Numbered from the stretch's first letter, positions 13,782-25,688 are shown. The stretch: 64,000 nucleotides of DNA from Oscillatoria salina IIICB1 (GCF_020144665.1 NZ_JAAHBQ010000013.1:1-64000), one strand, 5' to 3'. Numbers and translations are program-made. Notes: generated by a model from the sequence alone, not told the origin.

Positions 13782-15101
13782 TCAGAACTTTTTCCACTGA
13801 ATAAACTTAAGATAATCCCCCTCAAATAGCTCTCCTTTAAGCATTCGATTCCAATAAATCCAAGGCAAAACAGTAGTTTTCATTTTCCACATAATCCAAC
13901 GCTCTTTAATCGGATTAAGAGGAAAGCTAGACATTGGTGTCTTAGTATAACCATTAAATTCAGCCATGATTGTCTTACCATAGCCAGTAATTAAAGGACA
14001 ACAAGTATAGCCATCATACTTATTTGATAACGGTTTTGAATCAATGAAAGCAAGTAAATTTGCGGCGACAACTACCGATTGTTTTCGAGCGGCGGCTGCG
14101 GTTTTAGAAGTTGGTAAAGAAGAAGCATCTCCTAAACTAAAAACATTAGTATATCGATTGTGCTGTAGCGTATATTGATCCACGTCTACCCAACCATAAG
14201 AATTATCCGAAACAGCTAAAGGACTCTCTTTAATAAAGTTAGGGGCGCTTTGGGGCGGCGTAACGTGAATCATGTCGTATTTGTAGGTAACTTCATCGAC
14301 AACCGCACCATTATCGTCGAAAACATCAAAAACTGCTTCTTTGATTTCCCCTTTAATTTCTTTCAAATTGTGCTGGAATTTAACATCAATTTCGCGTTCG
14401 GCAACTACTTTATCTAAGATTGCTGAATATTCTGGTACAGAAAACATTTTCGTCGCTGGTGTGAGAAACATCACGTTAGTACGCTGACGAACTCCGAATT
14501 TACTGCGGAAAGTGTCATCTGCCATATACATTACTTTTTGCGGCGCACCACCACATTTAACAGGAGTTTTGGGAAAGGTAAATAAAGCATTTCCACCAGA
14601 AAAATTTTTGATTAGTTCCCATGTATAAGGTGCGTAATTAGGTAAATAGTTGCTGGTGACACCATTTTTTCCGATCGCTTCTTTTAGCCCTTTAATTAAA
14701 TGCCAGTCTAACTGTATACCAGGACAGACAACTAAGTAATCATACTTAACCAGAATCCCTTCTTTGGTCAGGACAGCATTATTATCTGGGTCTAATTTAA
14801 TCACTCGGTCTGCAATCCAAGTCGCTTGGGGAGGAATGAAATCTTTTTTATCCTTAAAGGTATCCTCAATTTGGAATACTCCTCCACCTGTCAGCGTCCA
14901 ACCGGGCTGGTAATACTGCTTCTGCGATGGGTCGATAATCGCAATATCTAGGGAATTGTTCTTTTTCAATATGATCGAAGCGGTGGTAAGTCCCGCAGAC
15001 CCACCCCCAATGAACACAATTTGGTGATGCAGGGTTTTGGCGATCGCGTGGTTGACAGATAAAGCTGGAGTCTGCGACTGCTGGGAAGTTGATGTTATCA
15101 T
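13782..15101 (-). CDS. sqr: Sulfide:quinone oxidoreductase, type II
   Basis: A 439-residue flavoprotein from the ATG; a TTG nine codons upstream (15128) is possible but has no ribosome-binding site. FAD-binding GGGSAG is at 32-37. The catalytic cysteines of the type II (mitochondrial SQOR-like) class are both present: Cys183 in TPVKCGGAPQKVMYM and Cys368 in GYTCCPLITGYG. A third Cys lies in VVCPG (126). The C-terminal half ends in amphipathic Trp-rich sequence suited to membrane attachment. It oxidises sulfide to zero-valent sulfur and passes electrons to plastoquinone. It is divergent from the NifX-to-rhodanese run and shares a promoter motif with the hdr operon. The assignment is strong; the physiological acceptor is inferred. 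Confidence 0.93.
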   Translation of the reverse strand: MITSTSQQSQTPALSVNHAIAKTLHHQIVFIGGGSAGLTTASIILKKNNSLDIAIIDPSQKQYYQPGWTLTGGGVFQIEDTFKDKKDFIPPQATWIADRVIKLDPDNNAVLTKEGILVKYDYLVVCPGIQLDWHLIKGLKEAIGKNGVTSNYLPNYAPYTWELIKNFSGGNALFTFPKTPVKCGGAPQKVMYMADDTFRSKFGVRQRTNVMFLTPATKMFSVPEYSAILDKVVAEREIDVKFQHNLKEIKGEIKEAVFDVFDDNGAVVDEVTYKYDMIHVTPPQSAPNFIKESPLAVSDNSYGWVDVDQYTLQHNRYTNVFSLGDASSLPTSKTAAAARKQSVVVAANLLAFIDSKPLSNKYDGYTCCPLITGYGKTIMAEFNGYTKTPMSSFPLNPIKERWIMWKMKTTVLPWIYWNRMLKGELFEGDYLKFIQWKKF

Positions 15102-15146
15102 AATTAGTCTTTTTTTCGTCTGAGACAAGTTGTAAAGATTTAATCA

Positions 15147-15162
15147 TTATATAACAATATAG
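15147..15162 (-). promoter_or_regulatory. Motif in the sqr promoter shared with the hdr promoter
   Basis: On the minus strand this reads CTATATTGTTATATAA, followed by TGA. It differs by one base from CTATATAGTTATATAA (followed by ATGA) at 21215-21230 in the hdr promoter. It contains a TATAAT-like -10 (TATATAAT) and an imperfect dyad TATAT-TGTT-ATATA. It is 46-61 bp upstream of the sqr ATG. Probable binding site for a shared sulfide or persulfide regulator; the regulator gene is not in the window. Confidence 0.6.
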
Positions 15163-15224
15163 ACAAACAATAAGTTTTTGCCTAGTAGTGCACATTTAAA
15201 TCTAAGACGAATTTTTCAGCTCCC

Positions 15225-15253
15225 TTGACTTATTTAACTAAATAGCTATAAAA
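15225..15253 (+). promoter_or_regulatory. Sigma-70-type promoter on the plus-strand side of the sqr divergent region
   Basis: TTGACT, a 17-bp spacer and TATAAA match the consensus -35 and -10. The -10 overlaps an ATAGCTAT palindrome. It would drive the small frame at 15273 and probably the plus-strand run beginning at 15581. Confidence 0.55.
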
Positions 15254-15272
15254 TGATTATAGGAAATGCCTG

Positions 15273-15431
15273 GTGAACCGAAACCCGTTACAAACTCACG
15301 ATTTCTACAAGTTGTGTGAACGGAATCGACAAGACCCAAAACCAGAAACTCTGCAAGAATTTATCGAGGCTGTTGATTCTGCAAACAAGCTGATTAATAT
15401 TGCCAGCCAGAGAAATCAACCCAATCGTTGA
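15273..15431 (+). CDS. Small hypothetical frame (52 aa), possibly the front part of a broken gene
   Basis: A GTG start (VNRNPLQTHDFYKLCERNRQ) is preceded by AGGAAA at good spacing and by a consensus-like promoter. The frame stops with TGA at 15429. Beyond the TGA the same frame stays open for 38 more codons, to a TAA at 15546 (RKLRKLDGTAVPKTRQALG, later NCPVEACDREYFLT). Either it is a genuine 52-residue peptide or one nonsense change has split a 91-residue gene. I do not recognise the product. It directly precedes the NifX-like gene. Confidence 0.45.
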   Translation: MNRNPLQTHDFYKLCERNRQDPKPETLQEFIEAVDSANKLINIASQRNQPNR

Positions 15432-15580
15432 AGAAAATTGCGAAAATTAGACGGAACAGCAGTACCGAAAACAAGGCAAGCTTTGGGACTAGAAAATAAA
15501 CCGAATTGTCCTGTAGAAGCTTGCGATCGCGAGTATTTCCTCACCTAACAAAATCCAGTTTAAACTTAGGAAAATTAGCC

Positions 15581-16006
15581 ATGAAAATTGCCGTAGCCAG
15601 TCAAAACAAAACAACCATCACCGAACATACCGGACATTGCCTAAAATTTTGGATTTACGAAATTAACGAAAACCAAATTGTAGACAAGAAACTCTTAGAA
15701 TTATCTCCCCAACAATCTTTCCATAACATTTCCCCCAACGAAACCCATCCTTTAGATGAAGTCCAAGTTTTAATTTCTGGAGGAATGGGACGTGGTTTGG
15801 TGGAACGATTAGAACAGAGAGGAATTGAAGGTATTATAACGAAAGAAACCGATTTAGATCGAGCAGTGAATGCTTATTTAGATAGTTCTTTAGTTAGAGA
15901 AGAACCAGAATGTCACGAACATGAAGGCAAACATAAACATCAAAACCGCCATCAAAACCGCCATCACCACCACCATCACAAATGTAACACTCCCAGTGCT
16001 ACTTAA
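15581..16006 (+). CDS. NifX/NifB-type dinitrogenase FeMo-cofactor-fold protein with His-rich tail
   Basis: A 141-residue protein from the ATG at 15581 (AGGAAA upstream); an in-frame TTG at 15506 is unlikely. The RNase H-like Nitro_FeMo-Co domain spans about 1-110: MKIAVASQNKTTITEHTGHC, then VQVLISGGMGRGLVERL and IEGIITKETDLDRAV. The last 30 residues are His-rich (HEHEGKHKHQ, later six consecutive His and a Cys). No nif genes are present, so it is probably a small metal- or Fe-S-cofactor-binding protein of the MTH1175 type. It is the first clear gene of a plus-strand run with DUF2214, flavoprotein, MBL and rhodanese genes. Confidence 0.82.
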   Translation: MKIAVASQNKTTITEHTGHCLKFWIYEINENQIVDKKLLELSPQQSFHNISPNETHPLDEVQVLISGGMGRGLVERLEQRGIEGIITKETDLDRAVNAYLDSSLVREEPECHEHEGKHKHQNRHQNRHHHHHHKCNTPSAT

Positions 16007-16028
16007 TTCCCGTTAATAGTGTTAATCT

Positions 16029-16093
16029 AGTAGGTGCGTGATGACAGAAAAAACAGCTAATCGATTTCAGCTTTTTGCGATCGCGCACCTACT
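16029..16093. repeat. Inverted repeat between the NifX-like and DUF2214 genes
   Basis: Perfect 10-bp arms AGTAGGTGCG and CGCACCTACT are separated by 45 bp. It belongs with the GTAGGGTG-type hairpins at 4544 and 29664 by sequence. It may attenuate or process the transcript between the first gene and the rest of the run. Confidence 0.6.
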
Positions 16094-16125
16094 ACTACTG
16101 TTCATTTACTGATATCAAAATTCTC

Positions 16126-16581
16126 ATGTGGGCAAGTTCAATTACTGCTTATTTCCATTACTTAGGCTTCATGTTAGCTTTCGCCGCACTAACAGTAGAA
16201 GTCTTCAACTTGAAAAAAGAAATGACTCTCAATGAAGCCAAAAGAGTTGCCTTTGCCGATGCTGCTTACGGGATAGCTGCTACTGCAATTCTAATTACCG
16301 GAGTGTTAAGAGTTCTCTATTTTGGGAAAGGAACCGATTACTATCTAAACAATCCATTTTTCTACACCAAAATGGGCGTTTTTATCCTTGTCAGTTTATT
16401 TTCTCTTTATCCAACATTTACGTTTATTTCCTGGTTTAAAGACTTACGAAGCGAGCGAGCACCCAGCTTAGAAATTGCTCAAGTCAACCGATTATCTTGG
16501 CTAATCAAAGGCGAATTATTTTGTTTTACTTTATTGCCCCTCCTAGCAGCATTAATGGCAAGAATGAGTGGATGGAATTAA
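16126..16581 (+). CDS. DUF2214 integral membrane protein
   Basis: A 151-residue protein from the ATG at 16126; the longer frame would need a TTG inside the inverted repeat. It has four predicted membrane helices: SSITAYFHYLGFMLAFAALTV, YGIAATAILITGVLRVLYF, MGVFILVSLFSLYPTFTF and ELFCFTLLPLLAALMA. It looks like DUF2214. Function unknown. It is 12 bp upstream of the flavoprotein gene, so it is co-transcribed and may be a membrane or quinone-side partner of the sulfur/redox genes. Confidence 0.8.
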   Translation: MWASSITAYFHYLGFMLAFAALTVEVFNLKKEMTLNEAKRVAFADAAYGIAATAILITGVLRVLYFGKGTDYYLNNPFFYTKMGVFILVSLFSLYPTFTFISWFKDLRSERAPSLEIAQVNRLSWLIKGELFCFTLLPLLAALMARMSGWN

Positions 16582-16593
16582 CGGAGAAAACTT

Positions 16594-17601
16594 ATGCAGC
16601 TTACCAAAAATAATCTACAGGAAAAACAAACCCACATTTATGATGCGATCGTGGTTGGGGGCGGTGCTGGCGGACTTTCGGCTGGCATTTACTTACAACG
16701 TTATCTTCTTTCTAGTTTAATTATTGATAAAGGCAAAGCCCGGTCTTTTTGGATGCAAGAATTGCACAATTATTTGGGTTTGCCATCTGATACTCCGGGC
16801 CGAGTTTTGTTGCAACGAGGAAAGGAACATTACGCGAGTTTAGATGGAGATTTTCTTAATGGTTTTGTTGAGGAAGTCAGGGATGAGGGAGAAACTTTTG
16901 CGGTGCTGGTAAAAGTAGGTCGCCAGAAGAGTATTCAGGCAGTTTTTCGCGCCAAATATTTAATTGCTGCAAGCGGAATTATCGATTATTTACCGCCTTT
17001 AGATGATCTGCGGAATGTTTACGAATATGCGGGTTATAACTTGCACGTTTGTATGGTCTGCGATGGCTATGAAATGACTGATAAAAAATGCGGTTTTTTT
17101 GCTGGTAGCGAAGCGGCGATTGAGGAAATGGTGTTTAATTTGAGTTGGTTTACAGCATATATTACAATTTTTACTCATGGGGCTTTTGCTGTTAACGAAG
17201 CACTGAAAGAGAAACTGCGAAATCATGGTTATCCGCTTATTGAAACACCGATTAAACAGTTTCTTGGTCAAAATCATCAAATGACAGGAGTTGAGTTAGC
17301 AGATGGCAAAATTATTGAGTTGGAAACGGGTTTGATTTCAATGGGTTCTTGCTATCACAATACTTATCTAAAAGAGATGAATTTGGAATTGAAAGGTGGG
17401 AATTTAGTAACTGATAAAATGTGCCGCACTTCTCATCCAAGAATTTTTGCGATCGGGGATTTAAAAGTGGGCTTAAATCAAGTTATCATTGCCGCAGGAG
17501 ATGGGGCTTTAGCAGCTACAGGAATTTGGCGCGAAATTCGGCGTACTAGGGGAGCAAGATTGTGGTCGAAAAATCTGCTTAAGGAACAAGTTGAGGATTG
17601 A
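16594..17601 (+). CDS. Thioredoxin-reductase-like FAD/NAD(P) oxidoreductase
   Basis: A 335-residue flavoprotein with the FAD motif VVGGGAGGLSAGIYL (about 20-34), an inserted pyridine-nucleotide domain and the C-terminal FAD motif IFAIGDLKVGLNQVIIAAGDGALAA. A CxxC pair is present in HVCMVCDGYE, the position of the redox-active disulfide of thioredoxin reductases. It probably reduces or oxidises a thiol or persulfide carrier. It overlaps the MBL-fold gene at TGATG. The N-terminal length fits the family. Partner and cofactor are not determined. Confidence 0.85.
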   Translation: MQLTKNNLQEKQTHIYDAIVVGGGAGGLSAGIYLQRYLLSSLIIDKGKARSFWMQELHNYLGLPSDTPGRVLLQRGKEHYASLDGDFLNGFVEEVRDEGETFAVLVKVGRQKSIQAVFRAKYLIAASGIIDYLPPLDDLRNVYEYAGYNLHVCMVCDGYEMTDKKCGFFAGSEAAIEEMVFNLSWFTAYITIFTHGAFAVNEALKEKLRNHGYPLIETPIKQFLGQNHQMTGVELADGKIIELETGLISMGSCYHNTYLKEMNLELKGGNLVTDKMCRTSHPRIFAIGDLKVGLNQVIIAAGDGALAATGIWREIRRTRGARLWSKNLLKEQVED

Positions 17602-18431
17602 TGAAAAGTTCGTTTTTAGTCAGAATTTTAGTCGAAAATACGGCTGCGGGTCGAGGTTTGTTGGGAGAACATGGATTAGCTTATTTAATCGAAACTGGTT
17701 CTCACCGCATTTTATTCGATACAGGACAAGGATTGGTTTTAAAACATAATGCTCAACAGTTGGGAATTTGTTTAGAAAATTTAGATGCTGTTGTCCTCAG
17801 TCACGGTCATTTCGATCGTGCGGGTGGTTTAATGGTAGTATTAGATGAGGAATGTCAGGCTACTAATTTATTTTTGCATCCATCGGCGCTGCAACCTAAA
17901 TTTAGTAAGCGGGGTGAGATTGGTTCTCCAATTCAAGATAAAGAAAGTCTGGAAAAGCAATTTCGTCAGTTAGTTTGGACAGATAAACTAACAGAAATTG
18001 TCTCTGGAATTTATGTTACAGGTACAATTCCACGAGTTCATCCTTTGGAGGATACAGGAGGGGATTTTTGGCAAGATTCTCAACACGATCGCGTTGATTT
18101 CCTCTTAGACGATCAAGCATTATTTTTTGCAGCGCGAGAAGGTTTAGTGGTGGTTTTAGGCTGCGCTCATGCCGGAGTTATTAATACTTTAAACTACATT
18201 ACCCAACTTACTGGCAAAGAAAAAATTTATGCGGTAATGGGGGGAATGCACCTCATAAATGCAAGTCGCGATCGCCTGCAAGCAACTGTGGAAACTTTAA
18301 TCAACTATGATGTCCAACTAATCGGTGCAAACCACTGTACGGGAATGACAGCCTTAGCTTTTTTGTGGCATCACTTAGCTGGACGTTGCTTTAGTTGCCA
18401 TGTTGGTACTCGCTTCGAGTTTGGAACTTAA
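17601..18431 (+). CDS. MBL-fold metallohydrolase (COG1237-like) with altered metal motif
   Basis: A 276-residue protein whose ATG overlaps the stop codon of the flavoprotein gene. The metallo-beta-lactamase fold is clear: LFDTGQG, SHGHFDRAGGL, GCAHAGVIN, GGMHLI and GANHCTG. The HxHxDH motif reads HGHFDR, so the last His, a ligand of metal 2, is Arg. The family includes dihydropterin-phosphate synthase-like proteins often found near NifX-type genes in anaerobes. Sequence resemblance to persulfide dioxygenase (ETHE1) is limited to the fold. Substrate unknown; a role in sulfur or cofactor metabolism is inferred from neighbours. Confidence 0.85.
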   Translation: MKSSFLVRILVENTAAGRGLLGEHGLAYLIETGSHRILFDTGQGLVLKHNAQQLGICLENLDAVVLSHGHFDRAGGLMVVLDEECQATNLFLHPSALQPKFSKRGEIGSPIQDKESLEKQFRQLVWTDKLTEIVSGIYVTGTIPRVHPLEDTGGDFWQDSQHDRVDFLLDDQALFFAAREGLVVVLGCAHAGVINTLNYITQLTGKEKIYAVMGGMHLINASRDRLQATVETLINYDVQLIGANHCTGMTALAFLWHHLAGRCFSCHVGTRFEFGT

Positions 18432-18471
18432 CACAAATTGTCCTTACTTGTCAATCTTTATTCAGAAAAAT

Positions 18472-18954
18472 ATGCGGAAACTATTACTTACCTTATGCTT
18501 GGGATTGTCACTGATGATTTTCCCTTTCTGGTTCATTAATTCAACACCAGCAATTGCGGCTACTGTGCAGGAAGAAACAGCGAAATCAAAGCTAGATCTG
18601 CCGGAAGCGATCGCGCAATTTCTCACTACTATTCCTCATGATTATTACACTCTTTCCAACGTAGACAGTCTCAAAAAAACGCTCAAAAATAATCAGGCTC
18701 TCCTAGTTGACGTGCGCCAACCTTCAGAATACGCTTCTGGTCACATTCCTGGCGCGATTAACATCCCCTTACGGACTTTAACGCAAAATCTGGACAAAAT
18801 CCCCCCAGACCGCCCAGTCGTTCTTTATTGCACCACTGGTTATCGCACCGCAATGGGAGTAACTGCTTTACAAATGCTCGGTTATAGCAACGTCCAAGGT
18901 TTTCCTCCCAGCATTCAAGGTTGGCAGGCGGCGAGAGAACCGTTAGAAAAGTAA
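18472..18954 (+). CDS. Secreted single-domain rhodanese
   Basis: A 160-residue protein from the ATG at 18472; the frame is open further upstream inside the MBL gene. Residues 1-30 form a signal peptide (MRKLLLTLCLGLSLMIFPFW, cleavage near AIAA). The rhodanese domain follows, with VDVRQPSEYASGHIPGAINIP and active-site loop CTTGYRT (Cys120). It transfers sulfane sulfur in the periplasm or thylakoid lumen. It is the last gene of the plus-strand run, and its stop is 6 bp from the end of the convergent feoB. The export suggests it handles sulfur produced outside the cytosol. Confidence 0.9.
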   Translation: MRKLLLTLCLGLSLMIFPFWFINSTPAIAATVQEETAKSKLDLPEAIAQFLTTIPHDYYTLSNVDSLKKTLKNNQALLVDVRQPSEYASGHIPGAINIPLRTLTQNLDKIPPDRPVVLYCTTGYRTAMGVTALQMLGYSNVQGFPPSIQGWQAAREPLEK

Positions 18955-18960
18955 ATATAA

Positions 18961-20790
18961 CTAACTGAAAAGCAAAGCTCCCTGATAAAAAAGGAAACTC
19001 ATCATCCAAGCAAACAGAAGCGAAACTCCGGCGGAAAATAAAGTAAATTTCCACGACTTCGATTCATTTAAGATCGTGGCAGATGTGGTCAGACAAGGCA
19101 AATACAAAAGACAAAAAATACAGAAGCTATAAGCTTGGGCTGGTGTCACAGAGATAGCAAGGTGTTGACTCACCAAAGTGGAATTCAAGCCGTAAATTAC
19201 CGCTAAGGAACCGACAACTACTTCTTTAGCAATGATGCCAAAAATTAGTGCCAGAGTTAGATAAGGGTCAATACCAATCGGTTCCATGACGGGGTTCAGC
19301 CATTGCCCAATTTGTCCGCCAAGAGTGGCTAATCCAGTGGTTCCTGGTGGTAGATTGGTAAGAGTCCAGACGGCTAGACAGCCCAAGAGAATAAAGCCAG
19401 AAGCGCGGCTAAGAAATTGTTGCACTTCGCCCCAACTCCTCACGAAAATGTGTCGGATGGTGGGAAAGCGATAGGGGGGTAGTTCGAGGACGAAGGGTTC
19501 GTCATTTTTGAAGACACCACTTAGTAAAACGGCGGTAATCACTGCCACAATTAAACTGAGGAGATACAAAGAAAAAAGGGCGATCGCGCCCCAAAATCCG
19601 GGAAAGATGGCGGCGATAATAAAGACAAATACCTGCAACCGCGCGGAACAAACGGAGAAGGGAATAATCAGCATGGTCAACAAACGTAGCGATCGCGATC
19701 GCAAAATTCGCGTTCCCATTAAAGCAGGTACGTTGCAACCGAAACCCATAATTTGCATGACGAAACTGCGTCCATCTAATCCCAAGCGCACCATTAAGCC
19801 ATCCATTAAATAGGCGCAACGAGACAAATAACCGCTATCTTCCAAGATTGCCATCATCACGAAAAAGAGGAAAATGAGCGGTACAAAGGAAGCAACAGTC
19901 GAGACACCATTCCAAATGCCATTAATCAGCAAATCTTGCATTACACCTGGAAGCGGCTGAATTAGAGGTTCGAGGATAACTTCTTGAAATCCGCTTGTGA
20001 GGAAGCCCATGATATCTTGGGAGGGCAAACCTATTGTCCAGATGAGACAAAACACCAGAAACATCCCTAAGAAAAACAAAGGCAATCCGGCGATCGGGTG
20101 CAGTAAAATGCGATCGAGTTGAGAGGTTAGCGATCGCTGTAAATCCGAAGGGAAAGTAACTACTCCTTCGAGAATTGCGCTCATTGCTTCTGAGGTAATT
20201 GGTGCTGCTGTGGACAGACAATCGTTGAGATTATTAACTTTGTAAGACTGAGATTGAGTATCTAAAGCTTGGGCGATCGCTTGTTTTGCTTGGCGAAAAC
20301 CCTTTCCCTGTTTGGCACTGAGTAGCAAAACTGGCATCTCTAGTCGTTGGGAAAGTTCCTCGGTGGCAATTTCAATTCCGTAGCGTTTCGCTTCATCTGC
20401 CATATTCAAAAGCGCGATCGCTGGTAATCTTAACGCTTTTAGTTGCAACAGAAGACGAATTTGGCGATCGATTTGCGCCGCATTTAAAACCAGCAATACT
20501 AGATCGATCGCAAATGTTTCTAAAAAATAGCTGACTACTTTTTCGTCGTCAGAGAAACTTTTGAGGTCGTAAATTCCCGGTAAATCTACAAACTCAACCG
20601 ACTCACCATTAATCGGGATGGTTGCTTGCAACAAATCCACCGTCACGCCTGACCAATTGCCTACAAAAGCAGACGCACCTGTAATGCGATTAAACAGCGT
20701 TGATTTACCGCAATTGGGCATCCCAATTAAGACGACTCGCTTGACCGCATTAGGATTTTGAGCGGCGCGAGCCCCTGCATGACATCCCAT
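18961..20790 (-). CDS. feoB: Ferrous iron transporter FeoB
   Basis: A 609-residue protein from the ATG at 20790, which has GGGAG upstream; an ATG six codons earlier (20808) has none. The G domain has GMPNCGKST (23-31), DLPGIYDL and NMAD, followed by the membrane permease with its two Gate motifs and about eight helices. The C-terminal cytoplasmic tail of longer FeoB proteins is missing. It imports Fe(II). feoA lies immediately upstream. Sitting between sulfide-oxidation genes fits anoxic, Fe(II)- and sulfide-bearing water and the high Fe-S demand of the Hdr proteins. Confidence 0.93.
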   Translation of the reverse strand: MGCHAGARAAQNPNAVKRVVLIGMPNCGKSTLFNRITGASAFVGNWSGVTVDLLQATIPINGESVEFVDLPGIYDLKSFSDDEKVVSYFLETFAIDLVLLVLNAAQIDRQIRLLLQLKALRLPAIALLNMADEAKRYGIEIATEELSQRLEMPVLLLSAKQGKGFRQAKQAIAQALDTQSQSYKVNNLNDCLSTAAPITSEAMSAILEGVVTFPSDLQRSLTSQLDRILLHPIAGLPLFFLGMFLVFCLIWTIGLPSQDIMGFLTSGFQEVILEPLIQPLPGVMQDLLINGIWNGVSTVASFVPLIFLFFVMMAILEDSGYLSRCAYLMDGLMVRLGLDGRSFVMQIMGFGCNVPALMGTRILRSRSLRLLTMLIIPFSVCSARLQVFVFIIAAIFPGFWGAIALFSLYLLSLIVAVITAVLLSGVFKNDEPFVLELPPYRFPTIRHIFVRSWGEVQQFLSRASGFILLGCLAVWTLTNLPPGTTGLATLGGQIGQWLNPVMEPIGIDPYLTLALIFGIIAKEVVVGSLAVIYGLNSTLVSQHLAISVTPAQAYSFCIFCLLYLPCLTTSATILNESKSWKFTLFSAGVSLLFAWMMSFLFYQGALLFS

Positions 20791-20794
20791 TTGC

Positions 20795-21043
20795 TTACAC
20801 TCCCGCATTCAGGAGGCGTACTTGTACTGTCTCAGCCTCTCGACAGCGCAGCGCAATCTCTGTGGTTAACCCTACTCGGATATGCAAAGCTCCACCCAAT
20901 CTCGCCTTGCGTAAGACTTGGATGGATTTGCTGGAAATCACTCCTAGGGCTGCCAATCGATTCGCTAATTCGCCACCATGACGACCGATATTTACCTGTT
21001 CGACAATCGCCACGTCACCCACGTTTAACTCTGATAAAGTCAT
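20795..21043 (-). CDS. feoA: Ferrous iron transport protein FeoA
   Basis: An 82-residue SH3-like protein starting at the ATG at 21043 (AGGAAA just upstream): MTLSELNVGDVAIVEQV, RLAALGVI and a short C-terminal strand set. A longer frame to 21094 lacks a ribosome-binding site. FeoA is a cytosolic partner of FeoB. It is the first gene of feoAB, with a promoter and Fur-box-like dyad 50-80 bp upstream. Confidence 0.9.
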   Translation of the reverse strand: MTLSELNVGDVAIVEQVNIGRHGGELANRLAALGVISSKSIQVLRKARLGGALHIRVGLTTEIALRCREAETVQVRLLNAGV

Positions 21044-21093
21044 GAATTTCCTAGGTCTACTTAATACAAATTTTATCTTAATTATCGAAGTCA

Positions 21094-21123
21094 ATTATCT
21101 GCTTATTGATAATTAATATCAAT
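21094..21123 (-). promoter_or_regulatory. feoAB promoter with Fur-box-like dyad
   Basis: On the minus strand, TTGATA (21117-21122), a 17-bp spacer and GATAAT (21094-21099) form a good promoter. The -35 lies inside a 19-bp inverted repeat ATTGATA-n5-TATCAAT (21105-21123), the size and A/T character of a Fur box. Iron repression by Fur is inferred. Confidence 0.6.
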
Positions 21124-21177
21124 TATTTCTTCTCTGGCGCGATCGCCTACCTCCGATTTTCACAGAAACTTACTTAA

Positions 21178-21230
21178 TTGAGTATATTTGCTGATTGAAT
21201 TATAATATAAATAACTATATAGTTATATAA
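21178..21230 (+). promoter_or_regulatory. hdr operon promoter and palindromic operator
   Basis: TTGAGT (21178-21183), 17 bp and a perfect TATAAT (21201-21206) form the promoter. A perfect 16-bp palindrome ATAACTATATAGTTAT (21211-21226) covers the expected transcription start, the classic place for a repressor. CTATATAGTTATATAA (21215-21230) recurs with one mismatch in the sqr promoter. An ArsR-family regulator (SqrR/BigR/sHdrR type) is the natural candidate; none is encoded here. Confidence 0.7.
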
Positions 21231-21288: not shown

Positions 21289-21996
21289 ATGGGCAAATTA
21301 TTTAACGAACTAAAAGAAGACATTTTGTATCAGCACGGGATGAATGCCTGCCTAAATTGCGGTGTCTGTACCGCCGTTTGTCCCGCAGCCGAATTTAATG
21401 ACTACTCTCCCAGAGAAGTAATGAACACCGTGCAATCAGAAGATGATGAGTTGATTATAGAATTACTCAAGTCAGACAAAATTTGGTACTGCGGGCAATG
21501 TTTTTCCTGTAAAACCAGATGTCCCAGAGGCAACAACACCGCCAACGTTATTTTAGCATTACGCCGACTTTCGATTCGTTACGGCTACTTTACCGAATCA
21601 GAAAAAGGCAGACAACAACTATTTGCCAAGCGGGTATTTGGGGAAAATATGCTCAAACGAGGCTATACCTTGCTAGCCGAAAATATCACACCTGCCCACT
21701 TTCCAGAATTAGGCGAAAACTGGGAATACTATTACGAACATAGAGAAGAAATGCGCGAGTGGTGGGATGTACCAATGGACTTAGAAAATAGCCCCGGTTC
21801 CCACCGAGTCATTCCCGAAAAAGACATGGAAGAATTGCGAGCAATTTATCAAGCAACAGGTGCAATCGAGTTAATGGATAGCGTCGAAAAAAGCATGGAA
21901 AAGAAACTCGGTAGCAAAAAAGAAGTCGAGAAATATTGGCAAACTTGGTTAGAAACAGGCGATAGTAGAAACTACGAAATCAAAGATAACAAATAA
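21289..21996 (+). CDS. hdrC1: HdrC-like iron-sulfur protein 1 (sHdrC1-like)
   Basis: A 235-residue ferredoxin-type protein with two [4Fe-4S] motifs: CLNCGVCTAVCP (Cys21, 24, 27, 31) and CGQCFSCKTRCPRG (Cys68, 71, 74, 78). An acidic C-terminal part follows (residues 100-235), longer than in HdrC2. It would pass electrons between HdrB1 and HdrA. It is the first gene of C1-B1-A-C2-B2, read from the palindromic promoter at 21178, with a 12-bp gap to hdrB1. The name follows the order known for sHdr clusters; function is inferred by homology and synteny. Confidence 0.88.
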   Translation: MGKLFNELKEDILYQHGMNACLNCGVCTAVCPAAEFNDYSPREVMNTVQSEDDELIIELLKSDKIWYCGQCFSCKTRCPRGNNTANVILALRRLSIRYGYFTESEKGRQQLFAKRVFGENMLKRGYTLLAENITPAHFPELGENWEYYYEHREEMREWWDVPMDLENSPGSHRVIPEKDMEELRAIYQATGAIELMDSVEKSMEKKLGSKKEVEKYWQTWLETGDSRNYEIKDNK

Positions 21997-22008
21997 GGAG
22001 AAAAGATC

Positions 22009-23055
22009 GTGAAAGTAGCAAGAGAAAACTTAGCTTGGCAAAAACATCAAAAGCACGTTCCCACAATCGATGAACCGGGAGGAAAATTATGGGGTTGCTT
22101 CCGTAGCTGTTTCTTACAAAGTGCTGCCCCTTACACCGAAGGAATAGCCTATAAAATCTTAAAAAATGATTTAGGCATGGATTTGCGAGAAGCACCAGGA
22201 CATACTTCTTGTGGCGCAATTGGCTATCACGGAGATGTGTCAAACGTAGAAACCCAAATGGTAGTTGCAGCCAGAAACTTTTCCGTAGCCCATCACGAAT
22301 TAGGTGTCGATAATCTCTTTTCCTTCTGTGTAACTTCCTTTGCCAACTACACAGAAATGATCCATCTTTGGGAAGAAGAACCAGAGTTGCGAGAATATAC
22401 AGCAAAAACCTTAAAAGAAACTACAGGGCGAGAATTTTGGGTTCCTCATGTTTCCGGTGGTAGACCTTCTGTAGTTCATGCTTCCGATGTCTTTTTTGCT
22501 AATCGACATCAACTAGCCGCCAAAGCTAAATATAGCCTTAAAGGAATCAAAGCAGTCGATCATATTGGATGTCACTACGGAAAAATATTTCCTGGTGAAG
22601 CAATGGGTGGGGTTGAGTTTCCCCAAGTTTTAGTAGGATTACTAGAAGCTTTCGGTGCAGAAATTGTTGACTATCCCGAAAGAAGACATTGCTGCGGTAT
22701 GGGTTTCCGACAATGTGCATTTCCAGAAAATAGAGACTACACCGCGAGTAGTGTCTACAAGAAAATGAAAAGTTTGAAAGAAGCGCACCCAGATTGTAAC
22801 TTAATGCTTACCAATTGTCCCGGTTGTACTGTATTTTTAGATGCCGAACAAGGAACGATTAAAGAGGTTTTAGAAGAAGAGTTTAACGTTAGTGTTTTGG
22901 ACTACGCCCAACTGACAGGATTAATGTTAGGTTATGACCCTTTCAAAGATTGCGGATTGAATGCCAAAGCAGTGTTAGTTGAACCATTACTGGATCAAAT
23001 TGGCATTCCTTATGACAAATCTAAGACTGCGGAAGAACGCAGAAGACCATTTTAG
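22009..23055 (+). CDS. hdrB1: HdrB-like CCG-domain protein 1 (sHdrB1-like)
   Basis: A 348-residue protein with a GTG start and a strong AAGGAGAA site. The C-terminal CCG motif is complete (Cys188, Cys228-Cys229, Cys270 and Cys273 in NCPGC) and should bind the noncubane cluster. The N-terminal motif is degenerate: one Cys (68) replaces CC, and CVTS (Cys107) replaces CxxC. So only one catalytic cluster is expected, unlike HdrB2. It is the putative catalytic subunit of an Hdr-like complex acting on sulfur-bound thiols. A 103-bp gap with a hairpin separates it from hdrA. Confidence 0.88.
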   Translation: MKVARENLAWQKHQKHVPTIDEPGGKLWGCFRSCFLQSAAPYTEGIAYKILKNDLGMDLREAPGHTSCGAIGYHGDVSNVETQMVVAARNFSVAHHELGVDNLFSFCVTSFANYTEMIHLWEEEPELREYTAKTLKETTGREFWVPHVSGGRPSVVHASDVFFANRHQLAAKAKYSLKGIKAVDHIGCHYGKIFPGEAMGGVEFPQVLVGLLEAFGAEIVDYPERRHCCGMGFRQCAFPENRDYTASSVYKKMKSLKEAHPDCNLMLTNCPGCTVFLDAEQGTIKEVLEEEFNVSVLDYAQLTGLMLGYDPFKDCGLNAKAVLVEPLLDQIGIPYDKSKTAEERRRPF

Positions 23056-23084
23056 TTTTTCCCTGAAAAGAAGAAGAAGGTAAA

Positions 23085-23116
23085 AGTACCTCTGAAAAGC
23101 AAAATTTAGAGGTACT
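23085..23116 (+). terminator. Hairpin inside the hdr operon
   Basis: Perfect 9-bp arms AGTACCTCT / AGAGGTACT with a 14-nt A-rich loop lie in the only large gap of the operon, between hdrB1 and hdrA. No T tract follows (AAAA instead). It is more likely a processing, stability or partial-attenuation hairpin than a full terminator. Confidence 0.5.
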
Positions 23117-23158
23117 AAAATACTCAATAATTGCCAACAAAATTAAAGGTAAAAAACA

Positions 23159-24229
23159 ATGAACAAAAAAGTAGTAGTAATTGGTGGTGGACCTGCGGGC
23201 ATGGCAGCAGCAGGAAAACTGCAAGATTTCGGATATGATGTAGTTTTAGTCGAGAAAAAAGCCGAAGTTGGCGGACATTTAAATAAGTGGTATAAAGTTT
23301 TTCCTGACTTTACCGATGCTTCGGAAATTATCGCCAATTTAAAGCAAGGTTTGGGTGAAACTCGAATTTTAAATAATGCTACTGTCACTCAAATTGAAGG
23401 GTCAGCACCCAATTTTAAAGTAACTGTATCGACAGGAGAAGAAATTGAGGCGACGGCGATTTTAGTGGCGACTGGGTTTAAGCATTTCGATGCTTCTTTT
23501 AAAGAAGAATATGGCTATGGAATTTACGATAATTGCATCACTTCGGTAGAATTGGATGCCATGTTAAAGGCGCAAAGTGTCAAAACCAGCAATGGAAAAT
23601 TACCGAAAAAAGTGGCAATGGTTCACTGTGTTGGTTCTCGCGATCGACAAGTGAATAATAATTACTGTTCGCGAGTTTGTTGTACCAATGCAATTAAAGT
23701 TGCGATCGAGATTAAAGAACAAAATCCCGATTGTGAAATTTACTGCCTTTATATGGATATTCGGGTATTTGGTCGCGGTTATGAGGAATTGTATCGAACC
23801 TCACAACAAGAATTTGGCGTGCAGTTTCTCCGGGGTCGGCTTTCCGAGGCTGGTGAAAAAAATGATGGTAGTTTATTGTTGCGTTTAGAAGATACTTTAA
23901 CCGCAAAACCGATGCGATTGACAGTTGATTTGTTGGTTTTGATGGTAGGAATGGAAGGTAATTCTGAGTTAGCCGAAGTTGCAGGTTTAACTGTTGGTTG
24001 CGATCGCTTTTATACCACGGCACATCAACAATATTCTAATAATGCTTCTCCGAGGAAAGGAATTTTTCTCGCGGGGACAGCCACAGGTCCGAAAGCAATT
24101 GTCGAATCAATTACTGATGGGCGATCGGCTGCGGCAGAAATTGCGGGTTTTTTAGCTAATAATCAAGGCTTAAATTCATCGGCAAATGGGCAGTTAGTAG
24201 CAACAGAAATGGCAGCTTCACATAAGTAA
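23159..24229 (+). CDS. hdrA: HdrA-like flavoprotein (sHdrA-like)
   Basis: A 356-residue protein, the short form typical of sHdrA and lacking the extra ferredoxin and thioredoxin-reductase parts of methanogen HdrA. FAD motif GGGPAG is at 9-14. The HdrA iron-sulfur motif is present: CVGSRD (Cys157) and YCSRVCC (Cys170, 174, 175). The C-terminal FAD motif is IFLAGTATGPKAIVESITDGRSAA. It would move electrons between FAD and the C and B subunits. It is 11 bp upstream of hdrC2. No hypothetical gene lies between A and C2, unlike many sHdr loci. Confidence 0.9.
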   Translation: MNKKVVVIGGGPAGMAAAGKLQDFGYDVVLVEKKAEVGGHLNKWYKVFPDFTDASEIIANLKQGLGETRILNNATVTQIEGSAPNFKVTVSTGEEIEATAILVATGFKHFDASFKEEYGYGIYDNCITSVELDAMLKAQSVKTSNGKLPKKVAMVHCVGSRDRQVNNNYCSRVCCTNAIKVAIEIKEQNPDCEIYCLYMDIRVFGRGYEELYRTSQQEFGVQFLRGRLSEAGEKNDGSLLLRLEDTLTAKPMRLTVDLLVLMVGMEGNSELAEVAGLTVGCDRFYTTAHQQYSNNASPRKGIFLAGTATGPKAIVESITDGRSAAAEIAGFLANNQGLNSSANGQLVATEMAASHK

Positions 24230-24240
24230 GGTGGAAAAAA

Positions 24241-24825
24241 ATGGTAGCTAAAAAAAAGTTTTTATTTGGGCTGAAAGCCGATCGCCAAATTGACGGCGAT
24301 AAAATGAATCGAGAATTTAGCGATCGCGTAATGGCGGAAGGTGGAGAAGGTGCCGCGATCGCTGCTTGTATGCAGTGTGGTACTTGTAGTGGTGGCTGTA
24401 CTAATATTGACCGAATGGATATGTCACCCAGAACCCTTATTCTGATGGTACAACGAGGGGAATGGGAAAAGGTACTGAAAAGTAACAGTCTGTGGTTATG
24501 TACTACTTGTTACATTTGTACATCCAGATGTCCTCGTGGGGTGCGCCCTGCCGATGTCATCGAAGCGGTAAAGGCGATCGCAATTCGCCAAGGAATTGAG
24601 AACGATTCTACCCGATTTAATCAAATATTTGTTGAGTTAGTTCAGAAACGAGGCATCCTTTTTGAACCAGAATTAATGCAGAAATATGGCGGCTTACAAG
24701 CGATGCTCGAACAAGCAAAATTGGGCATTCAATTAACCCTTAAAGGCAAAATGTCGCCCTTTCCGGCAAAAATTAAAAACCCGAAAAAATTTAACGAAGC
24801 ATTAGAAAAGGCAGGCAAACAATGA
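24241..24825 (+). CDS. hdrC2: HdrC-like iron-sulfur protein 2 (sHdrC2-like)
   Basis: A 194-residue protein with two [4Fe-4S] motifs: CMQCGTCSGGCT (Cys43, 46, 49, 53) and CTTCYICTSRCPRG (Cys87, 90, 93, 97). A basic helical C-terminus follows. It overlaps hdrB2 by 4 bp (ATGA), so the two are translationally coupled. It is the electron-relay partner of HdrB2 and HdrA, by homology. Confidence 0.9.
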   Translation: MVAKKKFLFGLKADRQIDGDKMNREFSDRVMAEGGEGAAIAACMQCGTCSGGCTNIDRMDMSPRTLILMVQRGEWEKVLKSNSLWLCTTCYICTSRCPRGVRPADVIEAVKAIAIRQGIENDSTRFNQIFVELVQKRGILFEPELMQKYGGLQAMLEQAKLGIQLTLKGKMSPFPAKIKNPKKFNEALEKAGKQ

Positions 24826-25688
24826 AATATTCTTACTATCCCGGATGCAGCCTTCATACCACAGCGAAAGAGTTTGATATCTCCACAAAAGTCGTCATGG
24901 AAGAACTGGGAATTGAACTCAAAGAACTTGAAGATTGGTCTTGTTGTGGTGGTTCCGTAGCTGCTGGCGTTTCTCATGACGTAGGAATGGCAATGGCGGC
25001 GAGAAATGTCGCTTTAGCCCAAAAGCAAAATCTCGATCTTTTAGCCTCTTGTTCTGGTTGTTATAATAAGTCAGCTAGGGCAGCCAAGGCATTAGAAAAT
25101 GAAACGGAAAAAGACCGCATTAACACGATCCTTTCCAAGATGGGGATATCAGTTTCTGATTACAATATTAGAGTCAGAAATGTAGTCGATGTCTTAGTCA
25201 ATGATTTAGATATTTCCAGCCGCATCAAAAAGCCTTTAACAGGTTTAAAAGTTGCTTGTTATTATGGTTGTCTCTTGACTAGACCCGCAGATATTACAGG
25301 CTGGGATTCTCCTGTTATCCCGATGTCAATGGATAAATTAGCTCAAGCTTGTGGGGCTGAAGTGGTTGATTTTCGGTCAAAAACTAAATGCTGTGGCGGA
25401 CCAATTTTAGTCTCAAAACAAGAGGTTGCTTTTGAATTAACTAAAAAACTCTTAGATGAGGCAAAATCTCTGGATGCAGATTGCATTGTTTTGGCTTGTC
25501 CCTTGTGTGCAACTAACCTAGAACTAAGACAACCTGATATTGAGAAAAAGTACAATGTGTCTTACAATCTACCAGTTCTTTATATCACTGAAATCATCGG
25601 ATTAGCTTTAGGAATTAAACCCGGAAAACTGGGGATTAACAAACATATTGTCTCACCGAAATCTGTTTTAGCAAAACTGGGAATTTAA
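24822..25688 (+). CDS. hdrB2: HdrB-like CCG-domain protein 2 (sHdrB2-like)
   Basis: A 288-residue protein with both CCG motifs complete: Cys9, Cys41-42, Cys77 and Cys80, then Cys150 (or 146), Cys190-191, Cys226 and Cys229. It should carry two noncubane [4Fe-4S] clusters of the heterodisulfide-reductase type, the likely site of disulfide or persulfide chemistry. It is the last gene of the hdr operon and is followed by a perfect 24-bp palindrome. No lipoate-binding protein or lipoate ligase gene follows, unlike known sHdr loci. Confidence 0.9.
   Translation: MKYSYYPGCSLHTTAKEFDISTKVVMEELGIELKELEDWSCCGGSVAAGVSHDVGMAMAARNVALAQKQNLDLLASCSGCYNKSARAAKALENETEKDRINTILSKMGISVSDYNIRVRNVVDVLVNDLDISSRIKKPLTGLKVACYYGCLLTRPADITGWDSPVIPMSMDKLAQACGAEVVDFRSKTKCCGGPILVSKQEVAFELTKKLLDEAKSLDADCIVLACPLCATNLELRQPDIEKKYNVSYNLPVLYITEIIGLALGIKPGKLGINKHIVSPKSVLAKLGI

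Follow-up and report, generated by a model that had tools for sequence, protein, structure and literature searches.

A 64,000-nucleotide stretch of the Oscillatoria salina IIICB1 genome (GCF_020144665.1, NZ_JAAHBQ010000013.1:1-64000; hereafter, the window) carries a gene for sulfide:quinone oxidoreductase (sqr) and a cluster of Hdr-like genes (hdr) whose promoters share a nearly identical 16-bp motif, raising the question of whether one repressor controls both and, if so, which protein it is and what else it governs. A preliminary description of the window had proposed a common repressor, probably a persulfide-sensing ArsR-type protein encoded elsewhere. Comparative analysis points to the product of an ArsR-family gene on another contig (C2:72003-72371), and it is highly probable, judging from sequence, that this single repressor presides over one regulon that combines sulfur oxidation with micro-oxic photosynthesis. 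Cyanobacterial perception of low oxygen or sulfide, and the changeover between D1 isoforms, isoenzymes of chlorophyll synthesis and sulfide oxidation, is for the most part unexplained, with ChlR accounting for part of low-oxygen control in two model strains. New here are a named DNA site, a candidate protein and a target list which, if the proposal is true, would place sulfide use and low-oxygen photosynthesis under single control.

The operator at hdr and sqr

The two 16-mers, located at 15147-15162 on the minus strand for sqr and at 21215-21230 on the plus strand for hdr, differ by one base, as originally reported. Also borne out is the overlap of the hdr motif with a perfect 16-bp palindrome past a consensus promoter: this palindrome, ATAACTATATAGTTAT (21211-21226), begins four bases past the -10 box of the predicted hdr core promoter (plus strand, 21178-21206), which consists of TTGAGT (21178-21183), a 17-bp spacer and TATAAT (21201-21206). 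Promoter boxes here and below are consensus matches, predicted from sequence. The TGA and ATGA described as following the motifs are both present, but relatives do not conserve them as part of the motif. The full operator unit is a 24-bp palindrome, TTATATAACTATATAGTTATATAA, which at hdr occupies 21207-21230, immediately after the core promoter. The sqr-proximal 16-mer, ATAACAATATAGACAA, is a poor palindrome with four mismatches and a single good half, and belongs to an imperfect operator (15147-15170) lying over a possible -10 box, TATAAT (15151-15146, minus strand). A better palindrome, with two mismatches (15234-15249), is found 83 bp farther upstream of sqr within a third site at 15230-15253, which is placed between the -35 and -10 boxes of the predicted core promoter (TTGACT-16-TATAAA, 15225-15252, plus strand) of a rightward rhodanese operon.

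With up to three mismatches, CTATATWGTTATATAA has 7 matches in the window, against 2.0 on average and at most 6 in 100 shuffles, and the top 16-mer match between the sqr and hdr intergenic regions (15/16) was reached in 1 of 400 first-order resamplings. Exact copies of the 16-mers in the 6-Mb genome are confined to these two, and one further copy has a single mismatch. Sites were ranked with a 24-column weight matrix built from the sites of other genomes, with TTATATAACTATATAGTTATATAA as its consensus, and with a second matrix built from the hdr sites of other genomes alone; the first ranks 21207 (29.4), 15230 (22.3) and 15147 (15.7) as the top three sites in the window, and the second returns the same order. 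Among 20 simulated windows, the best score ranged from 8.4 to 20.0. Taken alone, the 15147 site is within chance for 64 kb, and it is supported because it lies 46 bp before the sqr ATG and adjoins the 15230 site.

Among the 80 genomes searched, 14, counting O. salina, possess hdrC1, and upstream of this gene a copy of ATAACTAWWTAGTTAT with 0-2 mismatches is present in 11 of the 14 (O. salina included) and one with 3 mismatches in a twelfth. Divergently oriented hdr and sqr have one common site in three genomes (G003, G036 and G059). In the relatives, genes for Sqr proteins that fall farther away than the hdr-linked group mostly have no such site upstream, so that the operator does not mark sqr genes in general. 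The preliminary description had named two outcomes that would count against a shared operator, frequent occurrence at unrelated A/T-rich promoters and lack of conservation; both were tested, and neither was encountered.

The proposed regulon and its candidate repressor

Other targets in O. salina were sought by pattern searches with mismatches followed by matrix scoring of the matches, a procedure that may miss sites outside the patterns. The best pattern match outside the window (27.1) is in the core promoter of psbA on contig C2. On contig C25, sites precede a DUF2892-Rieske-rhodanese operon (21.6) and a persulfide dioxygenase-rhodanese-TauE operon (19.3), the dioxygenase of which matches solved structures of the ETHE1 type. 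The divergent acsF and ho2-hemN region on C2 has sites on both sides, one scoring 19.0 and the other weaker. The hdr-only matrix likewise picks up the psbA, Rieske-protein and persulfide dioxygenase promoters and, weakly, acsF/ho2. As a separate target, ho2 is unsupported, with 1 of 8 positive in a scan of its own upstream region in named loci; the exception is a second site facing ho2, at C2:63532 and in Acaryochloris. Matches on C12, C60, C53, C54, C72, C114, C117, C126, C34 and C50 were discarded with scores of about 15 or less, and those on C59 (18.1), C62 (17.0) and C162 (16.3) had no convincing target in the adjoining stretch examined.

The candidate gene, one of six ArsR-type genes in O. 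salina, lies directly behind the operator-bearing psbA. Its relatives adjoin psbA in G034, G022, G055, G076 and G003, and sqr in G026, G046 and G066; many of these relatives are themselves preceded by the operator. A second gene for an SQR-like flavoprotein (L022, 2983-4287) is found near psbA and arsR on C2; relatives of this gene lie near hdr or sqr in G055, G036, G052 and G059, and in four named genomes relatives have the operator upstream (4/4).

The association of operator and repressor was assessed in 80 loci of named genomes that were found via the ArsR alignment alone and scored with the hdr-only matrix, so that training and test sets were separate, at a threshold set to the 99th percentile of an AT-rich background from the same loci (1% expected). 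The operator exceeds this threshold upstream of arsR in 55 of the 80 loci (Mann-Whitney p 1e-38), at 9/9 neighboring psbA genes and at 13 of 16 neighboring acsF genes. None of the operon-internal trx, hemN and tauE genes in these loci scored above it, and with the same matrix the paralogous ArsR family (C27 type) has the operator upstream in 1 of 20 cases. Related genomes share ancestry, so the p-values overstate independence, and the fractions and controls weigh more. A plasmid-borne arsR of Synechocystis, with only 37% identity over 75% of the query, was not counted as an orthologue.

In all 10 psbA promoters scored, the operator keeps one register between a TTGACA-like and a TATATA-like box, with its center 7-8 bp upstream of the -10 center, and in the hdr, persulfide dioxygenase and acsF promoters of O. 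salina, it overlaps or follows the -10 box; both placements appear compatible with steric repression. The product of the operator-bearing psbA of O. salina has A80, A144, L158, M173 and A286, and keeps the Mn ligands D170, E189, H332, E333, D342 and A344. We take A80, L158 and A286 to be marks of micro-oxic D1. In Thermosynechococcus (T. elongatus), the micro-oxic PsbA2 is recognized by the replacements C144P and P173M (PMC9709244). The regulated psbA is thus assigned to micro-oxic D1 (D1', group 3), as a predicted class set by residue marks. Among 13 listed psbA copies with strong sites, 12 encode a D1 with at least 4 of A80, A/P/S144, L158, M173 and A286; no operator site accompanies a standard D1 gene located next to an arsR (L093), and the rogue D1 gene of O. 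salina has only a weak one (15.6). This rogue gene (L130/L156, C26:31908-32978; E170, Q189, Y332, A333 and L342 in place of Mn ligands) is the only other psbA found in the 163-contig assembly; no standard psbA was found there, probably because identical copies were lost in assembly. In G074, a psbA remnant beside a Rieske gene (L117, 13841-14400), reduced to short pieces with most of the gene gone, still has operator-like sites upstream.

For acsF, genomes with and without the C2-type ArsR can be compared. The upstream site is present in 0 of 13 acsF genes from eleven relatives lacking this ArsR, and in ArsR-carrying genomes at 9 of the 13 acsF copies more than 62% identical to that of O. salina; 14 of 16 more distant copies in such genomes are without it. 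Most ArsR-less genomes have the distant acsF type only, and the sharpest comparison is accordingly within one genus, where the closest acsF has the operator in the ArsR-bearing G006 and G058 (L308 and L310) and a ChlR-like motif in the ArsR-less G035 and G077 (L290 and L288), a possible case of regulator replacement. In Acaryochloris genomes, the operator is on the acsF/ho2 pair and on none of the other acsF copies.

Several observations weigh against this picture. The hdr promoters of G026 and G079, among the 14 hdr genomes, have no convincing site, and G052 combines an imperfect hdr site with only the paralogous ArsR type. The acsF and ho2 sites of O. salina itself score just 13.0 and 12.4 under the hdr-only matrix. 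Of the 13 closer acsF copies (above 62% identity) from ArsR-carrying genomes, 4 are without a good site, and Microcystis loci have arsR but no operator site. Finally, the operator-like site at the start of the O. salina arsR is no more than weak (14.0, L022:8372), and autoregulation, common in relatives, is therefore predicted to be weak or absent here.

Taken together, the conservation at hdr, the repressor-like positions in core promoters and the ArsR family flanking psbA or sqr lend good support to the original proposal of a common ArsR-type repressor encoded elsewhere. The predicted regulon is wider than the sqr and hdr pair first proposed, with low-oxygen photosynthesis genes as the most regular targets.

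Proposed mechanism, possible signals and rival regulators

The C2 protein, 123 amino acids long, belongs to the ArsR/SmtB family (HTH_5, 43.1 bits, cut-off 22; NF033788, 79.4 bits, cut-off 55), and its AlphaFold2 model (mean predicted local distance difference test score 84) has the winged-helix order of helices and strands. Fold comparison put LmrR at the head of many winged-helix families with equal Z, and is silent on function; the match to BigR (3pqj_A; Z 11.0, root-mean-square deviation 3.1, 79 residues) concerns the overall fold, and the protein scores 33.2 bits against the BigR NCBIfam equivalog, well short of the cut-off of 155. Conserved cysteines comprise C101 (73 of 75 sequences) and C105 (74/75), which form a CX3C motif in the last helix, and C44 (62/75). 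Persulfide sensing is plausible because the predicted targets include sqr, rhodaneses and persulfide dioxygenase, and because the CX3C motif is kept.

We infer that a homodimer of the C2 ArsR binds TTATATAACTATATAGTTATATAA and represses transcription; it would block RNA polymerase, given that the sites lie within the spacer that parts the -35 from the -10 or immediately past the latter. A signal read through C101 and C105, often also C44, would release the repressor and open sqr, the rhodanese operon, hdr, the persulfide dioxygenase operon and the Rieske-protein operon, together with psbA (D1') and probably acsF/ho2. Most likely, the inducing signal would be sulfide or persulfide, with low oxygen either accompanying it or giving rise to it.

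The strongest competing explanation, which we consider a serious possibility although somewhat less than an even one, retains this ArsR but has it sense low oxygen or thiol redox, the sulfur genes being later recruits to a micro-oxic regulon. An orthologue of the window sqr is missing in 14 of the 18 genomes carrying the C2-type ArsR, and D1' psbA and acsF are the most regular targets; the inducing signal may therefore be low oxygen, or reduced sulfur, and not just sulfide. In Acaryochloris marina, acsF and heme oxygenase (AM1_0465 and AM1_0466) rise strongly at low oxygen (PMC5295598), which fits the presence of the operator at these genes in sister Acaryochloris genomes, the strain itself not being among those identified. 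In O. salina, however, sulfur genes make up most of the predicted targets, persulfide dioxygenase and rhodaneses among them, and sulfane sulfur can rise without sqr as well. The sulfur targets thus point to sulfane sulfur as the signal, and the sqr-less ArsR genomes to redox state or oxygen.

It is improbable that another ArsR paralogue, or several jointly, act on the same operator. The six ArsR-type genes, the similar recognition helix of the C27 paralogue and the hdr site in G052 speak for such an arrangement, but the operator stands upstream of the C27 type so much more rarely than of the C2 type (the 1/20 and 55/80 given above), and acsF is without sites where the C2 type is missing. Still less credible is that the site serves an oxygen regulator of a different kind, be it ChlR or, for instance, some activator of the MarR type. 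ChlR, a MarR-family protein studied in Synechocystis 6803 and Synechococcus 7002, controls chlAII-ho2-hemN and, in 6803, psbA1 at low oxygen, targets that overlap the putative ones of the C2 ArsR, but is an activator of another family with a different motif, TTMCC-N3/4-GGWAA (PMC4500134); the O. salina promoters of acsF, psbA, hdr and sqr contain no match to this motif, and sites in core promoters suit a repressor, not an activator. Chance likeness of A/T-rich promoters can practically be dismissed: although the pattern, with 3 mismatches allowed, has hundreds of genomic occurrences and 2 of 4 single-mismatch sites (C12 and C60) lack a fitting score or target, this explanation is already contradicted by conservation and by enrichment over AT-matched background with blind training and test sets.

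Among known systems, the sulfane-sulfur repressors SqrR, BigR, SoxR and sHdrR (PMC10451225, PMC12423496) share with the C2 ArsR the fold and, as proposed for it, the repressor logic and the control of sqr- or hdr-type sulfur oxidation; the C2 ArsR has its cysteines laid out as CX3C in the last helix plus a less constant C44 and, unlike these repressors, photosynthesis genes among its putative targets. RexT of Nostoc 7120 is likewise a cyanobacterial, cysteine-based ArsR repressor, but acts on trxA2 through the operator ATTCG-N15-CGAAT and a vicinal C40-C41 switch opened by H2O2 (PMC8960804); this operator does not agree with the consensus of the sites described here. YgaV of Escherichia coli is described as a sulfide-responsive, SqrR/BigR-type protein that also controls anaerobic respiratory genes, but is proteobacterial and has other target genes (PMC9774250).

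In the portion of their paper considered here, Grim and Dick (2016) reported that arsR-like genes occur next to sqr and to psbA of groups 2/3 in cyanobacteria, neighborhoods similar to those seen here, and called the psbA-sqr link untested; that portion gives no operator, target list or assignment to a single regulator, and hdr, persulfide dioxygenase, acsF and ho2 are outside their link (PMC5061849). According to reviewers of ChlR, strains with ChlR-type target genes but no chlR probably rely on another mechanism (PMC4500134), and the sections considered of a July 2026 review of cyanobacterial redox regulation mention RexT as a redox regulator of the ArsR family and assign no ArsR to psbA, acsF or sqr (PMC13421787). 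No description of the regulon was found in the open-access literature searched, subscription papers and preprints being outside that search. There is about an even chance that the C2 ArsR represents a widespread cyanobacterial master switch, responsive to sulfane sulfur or low oxygen, for micro-oxic D1, for the micro-oxic synthesis of chlorophyll and bilin, and for sulfide oxidation in genomes that have it, in which a single repressor would decide between oxygenic and sulfide-fed photosynthesis and which ChlR would have replaced in some lineages.

Genes around the window operators

The sqr gene (13782-15128, minus strand; alternative ATG start at 15101) encodes a protein matching human SQOR (E 1e-110). 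On the opposite side of the 15230 operator, the rightward operon (15581-18954, plus strand) comprises, by Pfam, genes for NifX-like, DUF2214, thioredoxin-reductase-like, metallo-beta-lactamase-fold and rhodanese proteins. Between this operator and the NifX-like gene, a 52-amino-acid open reading frame with a GTG start (15273-15431, plus strand) may be an unannotated first gene of the operon.

The Hdr-like cluster (21289-25688, plus strand) has the order C-B-A-C-B according to Pfam and NCBIfam, with no gene between A and C2, and can be compared with the sHdr sulfur-oxidation system, which has the order hdrC1B1A-hyp-C2B2 and a lipoate-binding protein. The region between the divergent feoA and hdr genes contains a Fur-like box, TGATAATTAATATCA, at 21107-21121, upstream of feoA, so that iron uptake and hdr may have separate control sites in a common intergenic region. 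In G055, the hdr operon (L113, 10001-13072) is seemingly truncated: residues 1-248 of hdrA run into hdrB2 from residue 118, and hdrC2 is missing.

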